Source: Albimonas marina (GTDB taxonomy: Bacteria; Pseudomonadota; Alphaproteobacteria; Rhodobacterales; Rhodobacteraceae). Taken from it: DNA of 64,000 nt. Both the position numbers and the translations under genes were made by a program. Where the stretch lies: NCBI RefSeq assembly GCF_029223255.1, contig NZ_JARHUC010000011.1, forward strand, positions 62,001-126,000, read 5' to 3'. Positions 317 through 44,022 of the stretch are shown here, one piece after another (the stretch's first letter is position 1; the number at the start of each line of letters is the position of its first letter). The notes under the pieces are model-generated. The model was given only the letters and a program-made list of their open reading frames with translations, was not told the DNA's origin and ran no database searches.

Positions 317-482
317 GCGCCTGTCCTCCGGATCCGTCCATCGCTGAAGATGCCTGAGCGAGTCGCCGGGCGGGGTCAAGGACAAGCCCCGCGCAGGCGC
401 GGGGTCGCTTCGCGATCCCTGACCCCGCCCGGCGACTCGCTCTTCACGGCATCAGCGATGGACGGCTCCGGAGAACAGGCGC
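317..482 (+). repeat. Branched 166-bp palindrome, copy A
   Basis: The outer arms GCGCCTGTCCTCCGG and CCGGAGAACAGGCGC pair, as do CCGTCCATCGCTG with CAGCGATGGACGG and GCGAGTCGCCGGGCGGGGTC with its complement. The centre holds two further hairpins, CCCCGCGC-AG-GCGCGGGG and TCGC-TTC-GCGA, so the whole can fold as a long stem with a branched head. One internal asymmetry, TGCCTGAG on the left arm against TGCCGTGAAGAG (complement of the right arm), recurs in copies C and D. The element lies between two plus-strand genes. There is no U tract and no associated transposase. Confidence 0.9.
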
Positions 483-4582: not shown

Positions 4583-5438
4583 GGCGCCCAGGCGCCGCGT
4601 CGGCGGTCGCGCTCTTGGGGGGCGTGGCGCGCGCGGCGCGCGGCGGGCGTGGCGCCGGGGGCGGGCCTCGCGAGGCGGGGCGCCTGCGGACCGCGGGGCG
4701 GGAGGATCGCCGCGGCGAGGGGGCGAGGGCGCGGAAAGAGGAGCGCAGGCGCGTCGGTCGCGCAGGCGCCGCATCGGCGGTCGCGCCCGTGGGAGTCGGG
4801 GCGTGCGCGGCGCGAGGCGGGCATGGCGCGCGGGACGGGCCTCGCGAGGCGGGGCTCGCTCGGCGGGCGCGCTGCGCGCGGGGAGAGCTTCGGGAGCTTT
4901 CCCCGGAACAGGGGCCGCGCCTGCTCCGCGGAGCCGTCCTTCGCGTCGGATGCCTGAGCCCCGCGGCCCGTCCGGTCAAGGACAAGCCGCGCAAGCGCGG
5001 TCGCTTCGCGATCCTGGACCGGACGGGCCGCGCGGCTCCGGGCGGCATCCGCGAAGGACGGCTCCGCGGAACAGGCGCTCGGCGCCCCGGGGCGGGCGCC
5101 GCGCCGGGGCGCCCGGAGCCGGCGGAGGAGAGAGGGGGCGAAGGGGGAGGGGCGCGCCGTCGGCGAGCGGGGCGAGCGGGGCGAACGCTGCGACAGGACG
5201 CCGACGAGGCGCGAGGGCGAGGGCATGGGCCTGGGCGGCGTCGCGCAGGCGGCGACTGCGTTGACGGCGGGGGCCTCGGGGGCGGCGACGGCCGGGGCTT
5301 GGGAGCGGGCGGCGCGGATCCCGTAGATGGCGGGCGCTGCGCGCGGTGGGGGAGAGAACGTCTGCGCCGGGGTGGGGCGGGTCGGCGCCGGGCGGCGCAC
5401 GGCGAGGGTCTCGCGCAGGGGCGGCGGGACGGCGGGGG

Positions 5439-7683: not shown

Positions 7684-8169
7684 GAACGCTCTCCTGTCGG
7701 GCGAGGGCGCGGAGGCCCTGTTGGATCCGATGCCCCGGACTGGCGCCGGGTTGCGCGGAGGAGCCATGCAGGGGGCGTGCCAGAGGGGCGCGAGGCGACC
7801 GGTGACGGAGGCGCCCTGCGGGCGGGCTTGGGCCTCCGGCCGGTGGGCGTGCCGGGATGGGCGAGGGAAAGGGAGCGGCGGCAGGGGGGGGCCTCCGAGG
7901 TGGGGCTCGTCGGCGGGCCGCTGCGCGGGGGCGCGCGTTGCGCGCCCGGAAGGTCGCTTCGGGAGCTCACCAAAGAACAGGCGCTTCGCGCGGGCCTGCG
8001 GGCGTTGCGCAGGGCGCGCCTGGCGCGAGCGGTGGGTGGGGTTTGCCTGCGTTCGGCGCAGGCGGGAGGCTTTTGGTGGTCATTTGGTAGGCGGTTGCGT
8101 TTGCGTGGTCAAATGAATTGCAGGGTGGCAGAGTGCAGGGGACTCGTTCTCTCTCTGATGGAGCCGGCC
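7684..8169. other. Intergenic region with a truncated repeat composite
   Basis: This 486-bp stretch separates two divergent genes. It holds the 5' box (7810-7831), a GC-rich hairpin stretch near 7925-7950, a TTCGGGAGCTCACCAAAGAACA tract around 7953-7976 and GGCGC, but no palindrome follows. It is therefore a truncated member of the composite family. From about 8070 to 8115 the DNA is less GC-rich (TTTTGGTGGTCATTTGG and TGGTCAAATGAATTG), the likeliest place for the dioxygenase promoter. TGGTCATTTG and TGGTCAAATG are near-repeats about 28 bp apart and could be a pair of regulator sites. Confidence 0.5.
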
Positions 8170-10478: not shown

Positions 10479-13099
10479 GCGCCGCCCTCCGCCGGGCGCA
10501 TGCGCTGGGCGGCCTGCACCTGGGCGTGGGTCTGGGTATGGGCGAAGAACGACCGCGCCAGCTCGTCCGACAGTTCCGCCAGCGCCTGGCGCACGTCCTG
10601 GATCAGGGCGCGCAGCAGCGGGCGCGCGCCGTCCTCGTCCTCCTCGGCCAGGGTCTCGGGGTCGGCGAGGCGCACCTCCATCAGCACCCGCATCGCCATG
10701 CGCAGCTCGCGCGAGCGGCGGGGGCCGGGGGAGGGCAGGCGCTCCAGCGCCTCCTCGAGGCGCATCAGCTGGAAGACGAGGGAGCGGGGGTTGCGCTCGT
10801 CGAGGATCAGCAGGTCGATGGCGGGCGCGGGTGCGGGCGTGGTCATGTAGCGCGTGCGGTAGGCCGAGCGGCTGTCGAGCAGGGTCAGCCAGGCGCGCAG
10901 CCAGGTCTCGTCCGGGTCGCGGCGCCGGCCGGCGAGCGCGTCGGCGGCGCGGGCGAAGGTGAGGCCCCGCTCCACCCCGCGGCCGAGCTCGAGGAACCGC
11001 CAGACGTGGTTGCGGGTCTGGTTCTCGTGCGTGGCGCCGGCGAAGGCGGCGAGCGCCAGCAGGCTGTCGTCGATCAGGCGCAGGAGGGCCGAGGCGTTCT
11101 GCGGCGGCGGCGGAGAGCGCCAGCCCCCGTCCGAGCAGAGCCGGTCGATCGAGCGCCAGCTCTCCTCCGACAGGTAGGGGCGCACCCGCTGGCCGGTGCG
11201 GCGCAGGGCCGACAGCAGGGCCGCGATGCCCATCGGCTCGTGCGGGTCGGCGGTGAGGCGGGCGATGGCGTCGCGCACGCGGACCATGCCGGTGCGCCGC
11301 TCGTCCGCGCCGGCCTGGATCTCGAGGATGGCGGAGAGGACCTCGGGGCTCTCGTCCTCCTCCTGGCCCGAGAGCATGCGGTCGATGGCCACCCGCAGGG
11401 CGCGCAGGGTGCCGTCGGCGCGCTCGGTGGTGCGGCCGAGCCAGAACAGGTCGTCGGCGACGCGGGAGAGCAGGTCGCCGCCGGTGCGGCGCAGGTGGGC
11501 GCCGGCCAGGCGACGCTCGATCGAGGGGGCGGTGCGGGCCTCGTCCTCGGTGCGCGCGGGGATCCAGACGTCCTTGCCGAAGGCGAGCGGCGGCGGCGGG
11601 CAGCCGGGCTCGACCAGGGTGGCGACGCCGCCCGGCGCGACCGACCAGCCCTTGGGCGTCAGGCCCGCGAAGACGCGCATCATCCACTGGCGGGGGGCGA
11701 GGCCGCCCTCCTCCCACGCCGGGGTGGTCGAGAGCGGCGGCGTCGCCACCGCCGCCAGCCGGTCGCCGGAGCGCTGCAGGAAGCGGAACAGGGCGTCGCG
11801 GTCGCGCATGGTCAGCGTGGGGGCGCCGCGCTCGGTCAGCGGGCCGCGGGTGATGCGTTCGAGCCGCCAGAGCTCGGGTTCGTCCATCGCCTGTTCGCGC
11901 GCCTTGGGGTCGCCCATCCACAGGCAGGGCGCGTCGTGGAGGATCAGCGGCTCCTCCAGCAGGTTCTCGCACAGGATGTGGGCGAAGGGGGCCATGGCGC
12001 GGTAGGCGAAGGCGCCCGAGCCCAGGCCGTTGGCGAGCCGCAGGCGGCCCGAGCGGGCGGCGAGCGACAGGGCGGGGGCGCCGGGGGCGGCCTCGTCGGG
12101 CTGGAACAGCGCGTCGAGGTGGCGCGAGTGGACGCCGCGCAGCAGGACCGAGAGGGGCTTGAGCCCCTCGACCGTCTTCACGTAGGCGGCGCCGTGGCGC
12201 ACGGTGACGTCGCCGGGCTCGATCAGCGCCGCGCCCAGGTAGCGGGCGAAGTAGGCGTGGGAGAAATAGCGCGCGTCGCGGGCGCCGCCGGACATCAGGG
12301 CGACGCGGCCGTCGGGGCCCATCGCGTCCTCGAGCGTGCGCTGGAGGGCGAGGTAGTGGCCGGCCAGCCGGCGCACCCGGGCGCCCAGGAAGGGCTCGGC
12401 GAAGGACTGGGAGGCGGCGACGCGGTTGGCGATCAGCCAGCCGTCGCCCAGCGGGCTGTCGACCCGGTCGGCGAGCACCATCCAGCGCCCGTCGGCGCCG
12501 CGGGCGAGGTCGACCTCGTAGAGGGTCATCCAGGGCGCGTCCTGGCGGGGCCAGTCGCGCCGCCACAGCGCGAAGTCGGGGTTGCCGTAGGCGAGGCCGG
12601 GGGGCAGCCAGCCTTCGTGCAGGGCCTTCTGGGGGCCGTAGAGGTCGCGCAGCGCCGCCTCGATCAGGCGGGCGCGCTGGGCGACGCCCAGCGAGATGGT
12701 CTCCCATTCCTCCGGCGCGATCACCACGGGGAAGGCGTCGGCGGCGGCGGCCATGGCGTCGGCGGCGCCGGCGGGATCGAAGGCGACGCCGGATTCGAGG
12801 CGCAGGCGGCGGTTCTCGGTCAGCACCGCCTCGTAGCCCTCGGGGCCGGCGCGGCGGGCCCAGTCGATGACCCCGCGCCAGTGGGAGCGCAGGCGCCCTT
12901 CGGCGTCGATGGCCTCGTCGAAGACCCGGGCGGGGGCGCCGGCGGGCGCGAGGGCGGCGGGCGGCTCCGCGGGGACCGTCGCGACCTCGCCGCCCGCTTC
13001 CGGCGCACGCCCGGCGGTCCGGCCGGACGCGGTCCGGTCGGCGGGGTAGTGCGCGAAGAGGGCCCGGAGGTCCTCTTCGAGGCGGTCGGCGACGGTCAT
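10475..13099 (-). CDS. Circularly permuted ATP-grasp fused to alpha-E domain
   Basis: An 874-residue fusion. The first 500 or so residues form a circularly permuted type 2 ATP-grasp domain (YGPQKALHEGWLPPG, YGNPDF, LYEVDLARGADGRW, a long KTVEGLKPLSVLLRG stretch). A second part of about 310 residues is an alpha-E domain (DLLSRVADDLFWLGRTTERAD, ENQTRNHVWRFLELGRGVERG, LILDERNPRSL). The two are commonly separate genes, so the fusion is notable. The start at 13099 has a strong AAGGAG site. The frame stays open upstream through palindrome C to 13687, but that extension looks like repeat DNA. ATP-grasp of this type is thought to form amide bonds; the product is unknown. Confidence 0.92.
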   Translation of the reverse strand: MTVADRLEEDLRALFAHYPADRTASGRTAGRAPEAGGEVATVPAEPPAALAPAGAPARVFDEAIDAEGRLRSHWRGVIDWARRAGPEGYEAVLTENRRLRLESGVAFDPAGAADAMAAAADAFPVVIAPEEWETISLGVAQRARLIEAALRDLYGPQKALHEGWLPPGLAYGNPDFALWRRDWPRQDAPWMTLYEVDLARGADGRWMVLADRVDSPLGDGWLIANRVAASQSFAEPFLGARVRRLAGHYLALQRTLEDAMGPDGRVALMSGGARDARYFSHAYFARYLGAALIEPGDVTVRHGAAYVKTVEGLKPLSVLLRGVHSRHLDALFQPDEAAPGAPALSLAARSGRLRLANGLGSGAFAYRAMAPFAHILCENLLEEPLILHDAPCLWMGDPKAREQAMDEPELWRLERITRGPLTERGAPTLTMRDRDALFRFLQRSGDRLAAVATPPLSTTPAWEEGGLAPRQWMMRVFAGLTPKGWSVAPGGVATLVEPGCPPPPLAFGKDVWIPARTEDEARTAPSIERRLAGAHLRRTGGDLLSRVADDLFWLGRTTERADGTLRALRVAIDRMLSGQEEDESPEVLSAILEIQAGADERRTGMVRVRDAIARLTADPHEPMGIAALLSALRRTGQRVRPYLSEESWRSIDRLCSDGGWRSPPPPQNASALLRLIDDSLLALAAFAGATHENQTRNHVWRFLELGRGVERGLTFARAADALAGRRRDPDETWLRAWLTLLDSRSAYRTRYMTTPAPAPAIDLLILDERNPRSLVFQLMRLEEALERLPSPGPRRSRELRMAMRVLMEVRLADPETLAEEDEDGARPLLRALIQDVRQALAELSDELARSFFAHTQTHAQVQAAQRMRPAEGGA

Positions 13100-13434: not shown

Positions 13435-13601
13435 GCGCCTGTTCTCCGGAGCCGTCTCTCGCGGATGCCGTAAAGAGCGAGTCGCCGGACGGGGTCAGGG
13501 ATCGCGAAGCGACCCCGCGTTTGCGCGGGGCTTGTCCTTGACCCCGTCCGGCGACTCGCTCAGGCATCCATCCGCGAGAGACGGCTCCGGAGAACAGGCG
13601 C
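13435..13601 (-). repeat. Branched 167-bp palindrome, copy C (reverse orientation)
   Basis: This copy is inverted relative to A, B and D: the TGCCGTAAAGAGCGAG arm comes first and GCTCAGGCATCC last. Stems are GAGCCGTCTCTCGCGGAT with ATCCGCGAGAGACGGCTC, and GCGAGTCGCCGGACGGGGTC with its exact complement. GTTCTTGGGTGAGTC (complement GACTCACCCAAGAAC) and the 22-bp box at 13684-13705 follow, as in copy D. It lies upstream of the ATP-grasp fusion and downstream of the DUF2126 gene, both on the minus strand. The remainder of 13100-13742 is GC-rich with no gene. Confidence 0.9.
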
Positions 13602-13683
13602 GGGCGCTTTGTTCTTGGGTGAGTCAGGAGCCCGCCGGAGGCTCCCTCCGCAAGCCCCTCCGGGCGCGCCCGAGCCCAAAGGC

Positions 13684-43768: not shown

Positions 43769-43856
43769 GCTTGTGGCGGGCGGGATCGCCTTCAGCCGGG
43801 GGGGCGCTGGGGGCGGGCGTCGCGGCGCTCCTGACTCACCCAAGAACAAAGCGCCC

Positions 43857-44022
43857 GCGCCTGTCCTCCGGAGCCGTCTCTCGCTGGTGATGCCTGAGCG
43901 ACTCGCCCGCCGGGGTCAAGGACAAGCCCCGCGCAAGCGCGGGGTCGCTTCGCGATCCCTGACCCCGGCGGACGAGTCGCTCTTTACGGCATCAGCGAGA
44001 GACGGCTCCGGAGAACAGGCGC
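43857..44022 (+). repeat. Branched 166-bp palindrome, copy D
   Basis: The outer stem GAGCCGTCTCTCGCTG pairs with CAGCGAGAGACGGCTC; the inner stem CCGCCGGGGTC pairs with GACCCCGGCGG, where copy A has CCGGGCGGGGTC and its complement. The head holds CCCCGCGC-AA-GCGCGGGG and TCGC-TTC-GCGA. The conserved asymmetry is TGCCTGAG against TGCCGTAAAGAG. It lies between the amidohydrolase stop (44064) and the BMP promoter region. No gene lies in 43562-44063. Confidence 0.9.

Follow-up and report, generated by a model that had tools for sequence, protein, structure and literature searches.

What four long branched palindromes, dispersed over one stretch of the Albimonas marina genome, represent, and what keeps their two arms matched while their sequences change, bears on a wider and mostly open issue, namely how long bacterial palindromic repeats, although recognised for decades, move and why they retain their fold. 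The window analysed here is a stretch of 64,000 nucleotides from a genome of 5.85 Mb in 22 contigs. The family found in it has more than 100 copies in a single genome, shares many sites with a sister species, includes sites that lack the hairpin, and carries a copy-specific segment, here termed X, linking the outside of the hairpin to both arms. It makes testable which strand folds, whether selection or templated copying lies behind the matched changes, and whether a site stays fixed while its hairpin is exchanged.

The preferred reading, on which our confidence is evenly balanced, is that of a non-autonomous, MITE-like palindromic element near gene ends, which would be kept through the folding of one of its strands and would drop out precisely between X repeats, some transposase presumably moving it.

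A dispersed family with a common fold

The four copies of the original prediction were all found at their places, i.e. copies A (317-482), B (4917-5078) and D (43857-44022) on the + strand and copy C (13435-13601) on the - strand, the canonical strand being defined as the one that has CTCACC ahead of the hairpin (the orientation in which copy A is read) and the sense strand as its reverse complement. Copies A, C and D are supported by sequence and blast, copy A also by its fold, and copy B, the most diverged of the four, by sequence and the head pattern; for copy A the strand that probably folds is -. The extent first given to the copies is too short, as the conserved unit reaches to CTCACC-X outside the 5' arm. 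In copy A this outside segment (c), its layout taken from family comparison, consists of CCACC plus X1 (299-313, + strand, with X1, AAGAACAGG, at 305-313), and X2 (AGAACAGG), a direct repeat of X1, lies within the 3' arm at 472-479 (+). Segment c is CTCACC plus X1 (CAAGAACA) in copy D (43835-43848, +), reads TGTTCTTGGGTGAGTC on the + strand in copy C (13610-13625, canonical -), and is degenerate in copy B (TTTCCCCGGAACAGG, 4899-4912, +), which is listed as without the CACC motif.

Around these units further repeats occur. An Albimonas-specific left outer module, GGCGCCCTGCGGGCGGGCTTGG (146-167, +), directly follows the stop codon at 143-145, and is present, in some form, with 58 of 102 copies. 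Albimonas copies are wrapped in additional repeats, GGCGCCCTGCGGGCGGGC on the left and GCGTCGCGCCGGGGCGCC plus GACGCGGCGCC on the right, which are absent in other genera and are also found without a hairpin. Imperfect tandem units (...GCGCGCATCGCGCGCAGGAGGC...) occupy approximately 160-300 of the window, between the gene end and copy A. A loose-motif match at 11888-12081 is absent from every blast and model list.

Copy A with its flanks (300-500) folds at -150.4 kcal/mol, compared with a mean of -89.7 for 200 shuffles, none of which equals the real value (z = -12.2), and the shape obtained is the predicted one, a long stem with a head made of two small hairpins. Copies are 160-174 bases long, start with GCGCC and have paired ends. 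In a set of 35 diverse copies (34 from Albimonas, 1 from another genus), 97.9% of cells are paired and 26 of 60 pairs have changed on both sides, a number reached by 0 of 500 shuffles (18.2 ± 1.5). The covariation score for this set is 0.303, against 0.085 when shuffled and 0.045-0.077 when partners are slid, the real pairing having an advantage over the slid versions because the structure was derived from the alignment on which it was tested. Covariation exceeds every control run, in agreement with the claim that structure is conserved above sequence. One middle pair has no mismatch in 161 copies, of which 115 have C-G and 46 have G-C, and neighbouring stem pairs take up to all four Watson-Crick forms.

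Pairing is incomplete at some positions, stem position 9 being unpaired in 42/161 copies and an outer position having a T.C mismatch in 84/165. The asymmetry reported as kept in copies A, C and D is real as an uneven internal loop, in which T stands opposite usually 5 bases, although the loop sequence varies between copies. The retention of mismatches in many copies counts against the preferred reading, in which the copies still able to fold would be those that persist and multiply. It is also a difficulty for a possible, though unlikely, alternative, namely templated correction without selection, whereby a polymerase copies arm from arm, and X1 from X2, in replicating DNA hairpins, and no folded product matters; the mismatched versions have themselves multiplied in many copies.

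The dispersal of the family is wider than the four copies had indicated. Blast finds 40 full-length places in the window's genome (54 matches, 14 of them other-strand duplicates of the same places), and a head pattern has 107 matches there, with 0 for the reversed pattern. A 3'-arm pattern, which may match both arms of a single copy, has 175 matches in the window's genome, 193 in Albimonas pacifica CGMCC 1.11030, 1 in another genus and 0 in the remaining 391 of 394 family genomes, its reversed control giving one match, in one of the 394; the abundance of the element in A. pacifica is similar to that in the window's genome. At least 32 exact matches to this pattern outside Albimonas were set aside as chance, their inverted partner agreeing at best in 11-15 of 22 bases; in 71 Albimonas matches the partner agrees in 18-22 of 22. 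In one of those counted as chance (L126, a Caulobacterales MAG) the pattern reads GGCTTCGGGAAACAGGCGC near the usual context of the element, with an inverted partner of 14/22. The collected copies number 165 (109 from the window's genome and 56 from A. pacifica), a large sample but not all copies.

Searches with covariance models, as the original prediction had proposed, found many further copies. One model (R1), and a second (R2) built with diverged relatives added, locate the family, as diverged relatives, in 38/394 family genomes, and in one further genome, besides the window's own, among 385 class genomes; with 7 candidates scored per genome under strict filters, absence in these scans is not proof. 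When more candidates were scored, each of nine genomes from other genera had between 6 and 36 matches over the two strands; R1 matches per genome are those among the matches listed (at most 150 per genome). One genome labelled as of the same genus (G002) has no R2 match at E <= 0.001 and three weak R1 matches, and its DNA similarity to the 2 kb tested is short, so it is far from the other two Albimonas members. Copy A and a copy from another genus (L236) have no plasmid matches.

Segment X and the strand that folds

The foot of the hairpin has a constant layout, in which CTCACC and then a short X lie outside the 5' arm, that X recurs at the end of the 3' arm, and its complement is found within the 5' arm. 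One X position, read in this order through outside segment, complement and 3' arm, is A-T-A in 142 and G-C-G in 18 of 163 Albimonas copies with the motif, with 3 exceptions, and in relatives X varies from copy to copy (AAGCAGC, AAGCAAAG, GAACGAAG, GAAGAAAG, CAGAGAAG, CGAAGAGG and others). Thus, the layout is conserved and its sequence is not. Over 35 loci of 28 genomes X1 and X2 agree at 7.46 of 8 bases within a copy and at 3.96 across copies (0/10,000 permutations), the orientation having been chosen partly by X similarity, which biases towards agreement. Agreement is found within genomes too (0/5,000 permutations, 69 parsed loci from nine genomes), here with the strand given by the model, with loci partly overlapping the set of 35, and with 5/74 loci unparsed and left out; several low scores in this test (L312, L322, L333, L336) look like mis-anchored arms. 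The duplexes of the 5' arm with the 3' arm and with the outside segment are both better within than across copies (0/5,000 each). An exact 6-base complement is present in the 5' arm in 7/35 loci, compared with 2% across loci, so that X is matched less strictly by its complement in the arm than by its own repeat.

Under the preferred reading the 5' arm (b) could have two partners, the 3' arm (a), with which it would form the long hairpin, and the outside segment (c), with which it would form a short local one. The conservation of two alternative pairings while the sequence changes is what would be expected of an RNA switch at gene 3' ends, in which b toggles between the two hairpins so as to affect termination, 3'-end decay or the sensing of ribosomes at the stop codon, with dispersal being secondary. 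We regard this as improbable; the sequence has no U-tract after the short hairpin, which counts against it. Templated correction would account for X1 and X2 being more alike than pairing needs. It would also account for one relative's copy (L340), in which the 3' arm holds the outside context, GCACC-X, a sign that the two ends exchange sequence and, for that alternative, a direct sign of end-to-end copying.

The proposal of a folded RNA or DNA can be refined, since the two strands are not equivalent with respect to loops, outside-X pairing and mismatch types. In 164 parsed copies read on the sense strand, head hairpin 1 has a GNA loop in 55, a GNRA loop in 22 and a CUUG loop in 42, and head hairpin 2 has a GNA loop in 159/164; on the canonical strand, hairpin 1 gives 3 GNA and 0 GNRA loops. 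In 34/35 loci the outside segment pairs better when the sense strand is considered. Mismatches of the sense G.U type exceed their mirror type both in Albimonas (87 versus 11 parsimony events and 23 versus 7 sites, 161/165 copies used) and in other genera (207 versus 43 in 91 copies, and in 23/24 informative groups). The mismatched sites are C-rich on the canonical strand, and base composition accounts for part of this asymmetry, e.g. a quasi-independence fit gives no excess of the G.U type in other genera (207 observed, 203 expected), where the mirror type is short (43 versus 69), and a clear excess in Albimonas (87 versus 59). Wobble selection as proof of RNA is tempered by this fit. Regional skew does not cause the asymmetry, given that the strand on which the hairpin is C-rich is G-rich in the flanks.

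GNA loops are stable in DNA too, hence single-stranded DNA is possible as the folded form. That a single defined strand, complementary to the one on which copy A is read, would fold, as RNA or single-stranded DNA, into the long stem with its two-hairpin head is supported by good but not conclusive evidence; if RNA, that strand is presumably transcribed. Templated correction predicts no strand preference in randomly oriented copies, whereas the loops and the outside-segment pairing favour one strand. The available text of one study provides a precedent for choosing the orientation of an RNA by G-U pairs and GNRA loops (PMC2864571).

Placement, loss and exchange at shared sites

With genes called by simple codon scores, none of the 158 copies with enough flank is spanned by a predicted gene, the neighbours being convergent for 57, tandem for 86 and divergent for 15. 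Copies in tandem positions have no orientation preference (46 versus 40), so that a part played by a folded RNA in the transcript of the neighbouring genes gains no support there, a result that tells against the RNA switch in Albimonas and is a point against the preferred reading too. Of 35 loci in other genera, 32 were classified on both sides, and in 18 of these the element lies between two gene ends. More in keeping with such a switch, the sense strand there starts 1-23 bases past a stop codon at 14 of the 23 loci where a gene ends on that side. The many sites common with A. pacifica (29 pairs) also favour it, but sites come and go, since among five sites compared by window synteny copy A alone has a hairpin in both species.

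Orthologous intergenic regions without the element, for which the original prediction had proposed a search, do exist. The hairpins of copies B, C and D are absent in A. pacifica, and the window itself has a hairpin-less solo site, CACC-X-GCGCT, at 7968-7985 (+), whose orthologous place in A. pacifica has a hairpin. Retained at such solo sites are CACC, a single X and the sequence normally found downstream, and there are 6 of them in the window's genome and 4 in A. pacifica; of these ten, the sister species has a hairpin in 6/6 testable cases (5/5 and 1/1), the loci compared having mostly been sampled for holding elements. A match to the solo pattern in another genome (G022) was set aside as it looks like coding sequence. 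The simplest history of the solo sites is precise hairpin loss between the X repeats, which, as direct repeats at the hairpin foot, would allow the hairpin to go and one X to be left. Precise loss between direct repeats at the foot of a hairpin is a known product of slippage, and in this respect would fit templated correction also.

At sites where both species retain a hairpin, the stems differ. Comparison of flanks identified 29 orthologous pairs, all in the same orientation (as the search required), out of the 56 copies collected from A. pacifica and the 109 from the window's genome. In the 27 comparable pairs the variable stem 9-mer is identical in 0, and stem identity, at 0.457, does not exceed that of non-orthologous copies compared across the two species (0.481), whereas 75-190 bases upstream the DNA keeps a locus signal (0.689 for orthologous copies versus 0.613). 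Of the 432 stem pairs concerned (27 sites, 16 pairs each), 278 are unchanged, 133 have gone from paired to paired and 21 are paired in one copy and unpaired in the other. The gene flanks of the orthologous pairs are mostly 82-95% identical, so base-by-base mutation alone is insufficient and the stems have been exchanged as blocks. The proposal of arms kept paired by matched changes is therefore upheld by the covariation but is too simple, and gene conversion, which had been raised as an explanation within each copy, is partly right but would act between copies as well. Comparison of the two genomes points to replacement by another copy, not base-by-base compensation. Block exchange is also in line with templated correction. 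Under the preferred reading, gene conversion, or loss followed by refilling, would swap the hairpins at old sites for other versions, the site being kept while the sequence of its stem changes.

A more specific form of such exchange is that of a mobile fold with a built-in address, the arm carrying the complement of the X that marks its docking site, with one hairpin leaving precisely, a single X being left behind, and another version re-entering at the same X. We consider this doubtful; if true, it would mean that sites stay while hairpins exchange, and that different X segments define parallel sub-lineages in one genome. Among copies with both flanks sampled, a hairpin is present in the sister for 27/29 of the window's genome and for 26/27 of A. 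pacifica (one of the 27 read by eye, having been missed by the motif). High positional conservation is tempered by the loci having been sampled for holding elements, the unselected window synteny giving the one shared site among five.

Relation to known repeats

No Rfam family matches the window at the gathering score, and five loci of relatives gave far sub-threshold matches, with E up to 1 and 0.052 at best. Comparison by eye with consensus sequences led us to drop integron attC sites and self-cleaving ribozymes. In size and placement the element corresponds to bacterial MITEs in the broad sense, being shorter than approximately 200 bp, with inverted ends, more than 100 copies and mostly intergenic locations. 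With regard to the target-site duplication of MITEs, X1 and X2 are copy-specific direct repeats, yet the conserved CTCACC outside X1 argues against X as a plain target-site duplication.

Resemblance to REPs, which are palindromic, extragenic, multicopy and subject to strand-specific recognition in the accessible part of the account consulted (PMC3733652), lies in the hairpin form, the strand preference and the intergenic placement. It is nevertheless very improbable that the element is of the REP/RAYT type, with a Y1 tyrosine transposase mobilising it as single-stranded DNA. REPs, as described there, are 20-40 bp with a GTAG tag, i.e. several times shorter than the present 160-174 bases, the alignment has no GTAG at the arm ends, and Y1_Tnp (PF01797) has 0 matches in the window's genome in a search that was positive in 5/14 control genomes. 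The length, the tag and the lack of a Y1 transposase thus place the element outside REP/RAYT. The same search for a RAYT-like gene extends the statement that no transposase is encoded nearby to the whole genome, for Y1_Tnp alone, and this negative result weighs against the preferred reading.

The available sections of one paper (PMC2229807) suggest that the element is most likely closest in kind to YPAL and ERIC. YPAL/RU-2, the Yersinia palindromic sequence, is described there as a 168 bp, intergenic, long stem-loop that is not A+T-rich, lacks TA at its termini and has repeats at or near the dyad symmetry on insertion. It is thus similar in length, form, location, lack of terminal TA and repeats near the dyad symmetry, but, on that description, is set apart by its enterobacterial hosts and by the two-hairpin head and copy-specific X-X'-X foot of the Albimonas element. 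ERIC/IRU/RU-1, likewise a multicopy intergenic palindrome with RNA folding, and reported there to change mRNA stability in an orientation-dependent manner, differs in being 127 bp, enterobacterial and with TA termini, compared with 160-174 bases and a GCGCC start in Rhodobacterales. The CIR repeats of Caulobacter and Brucella are, in the same sections, alphaproteobacterial and intergenic with conserved RNA folds, but have two arms joined by a linker and a GANTC motif, whereas the 5' and 3' ends of the Albimonas element pair together. The open-licence literature yielded no description of this layout in Rhodobacterales, one elsewhere being possible; the view that no described family has it is in that sense uncontradicted, although long intergenic palindromes as a kind are, as with ERIC and YPAL, well known.

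Variation in the head was also observed beyond Albimonas. In L221, L222, L223, L247 and L250 short palindromes have the head of the element, GTCAAGGA...TCCTTGAC, without its outer arms, and may represent another repeat with that head; L221-L223 adjoin a common CCGCCTCTCAGCA stretch. Seven loci of other genera (L236, L238, L240, L219, L228, L231 and L242) have a second head type, approximately GCnGTnTCCC-hairpin-GGGnCCCTCnGCnATT, on the same foot, which resembles a fixed-sequence internal loop and may be a second lineage marker.
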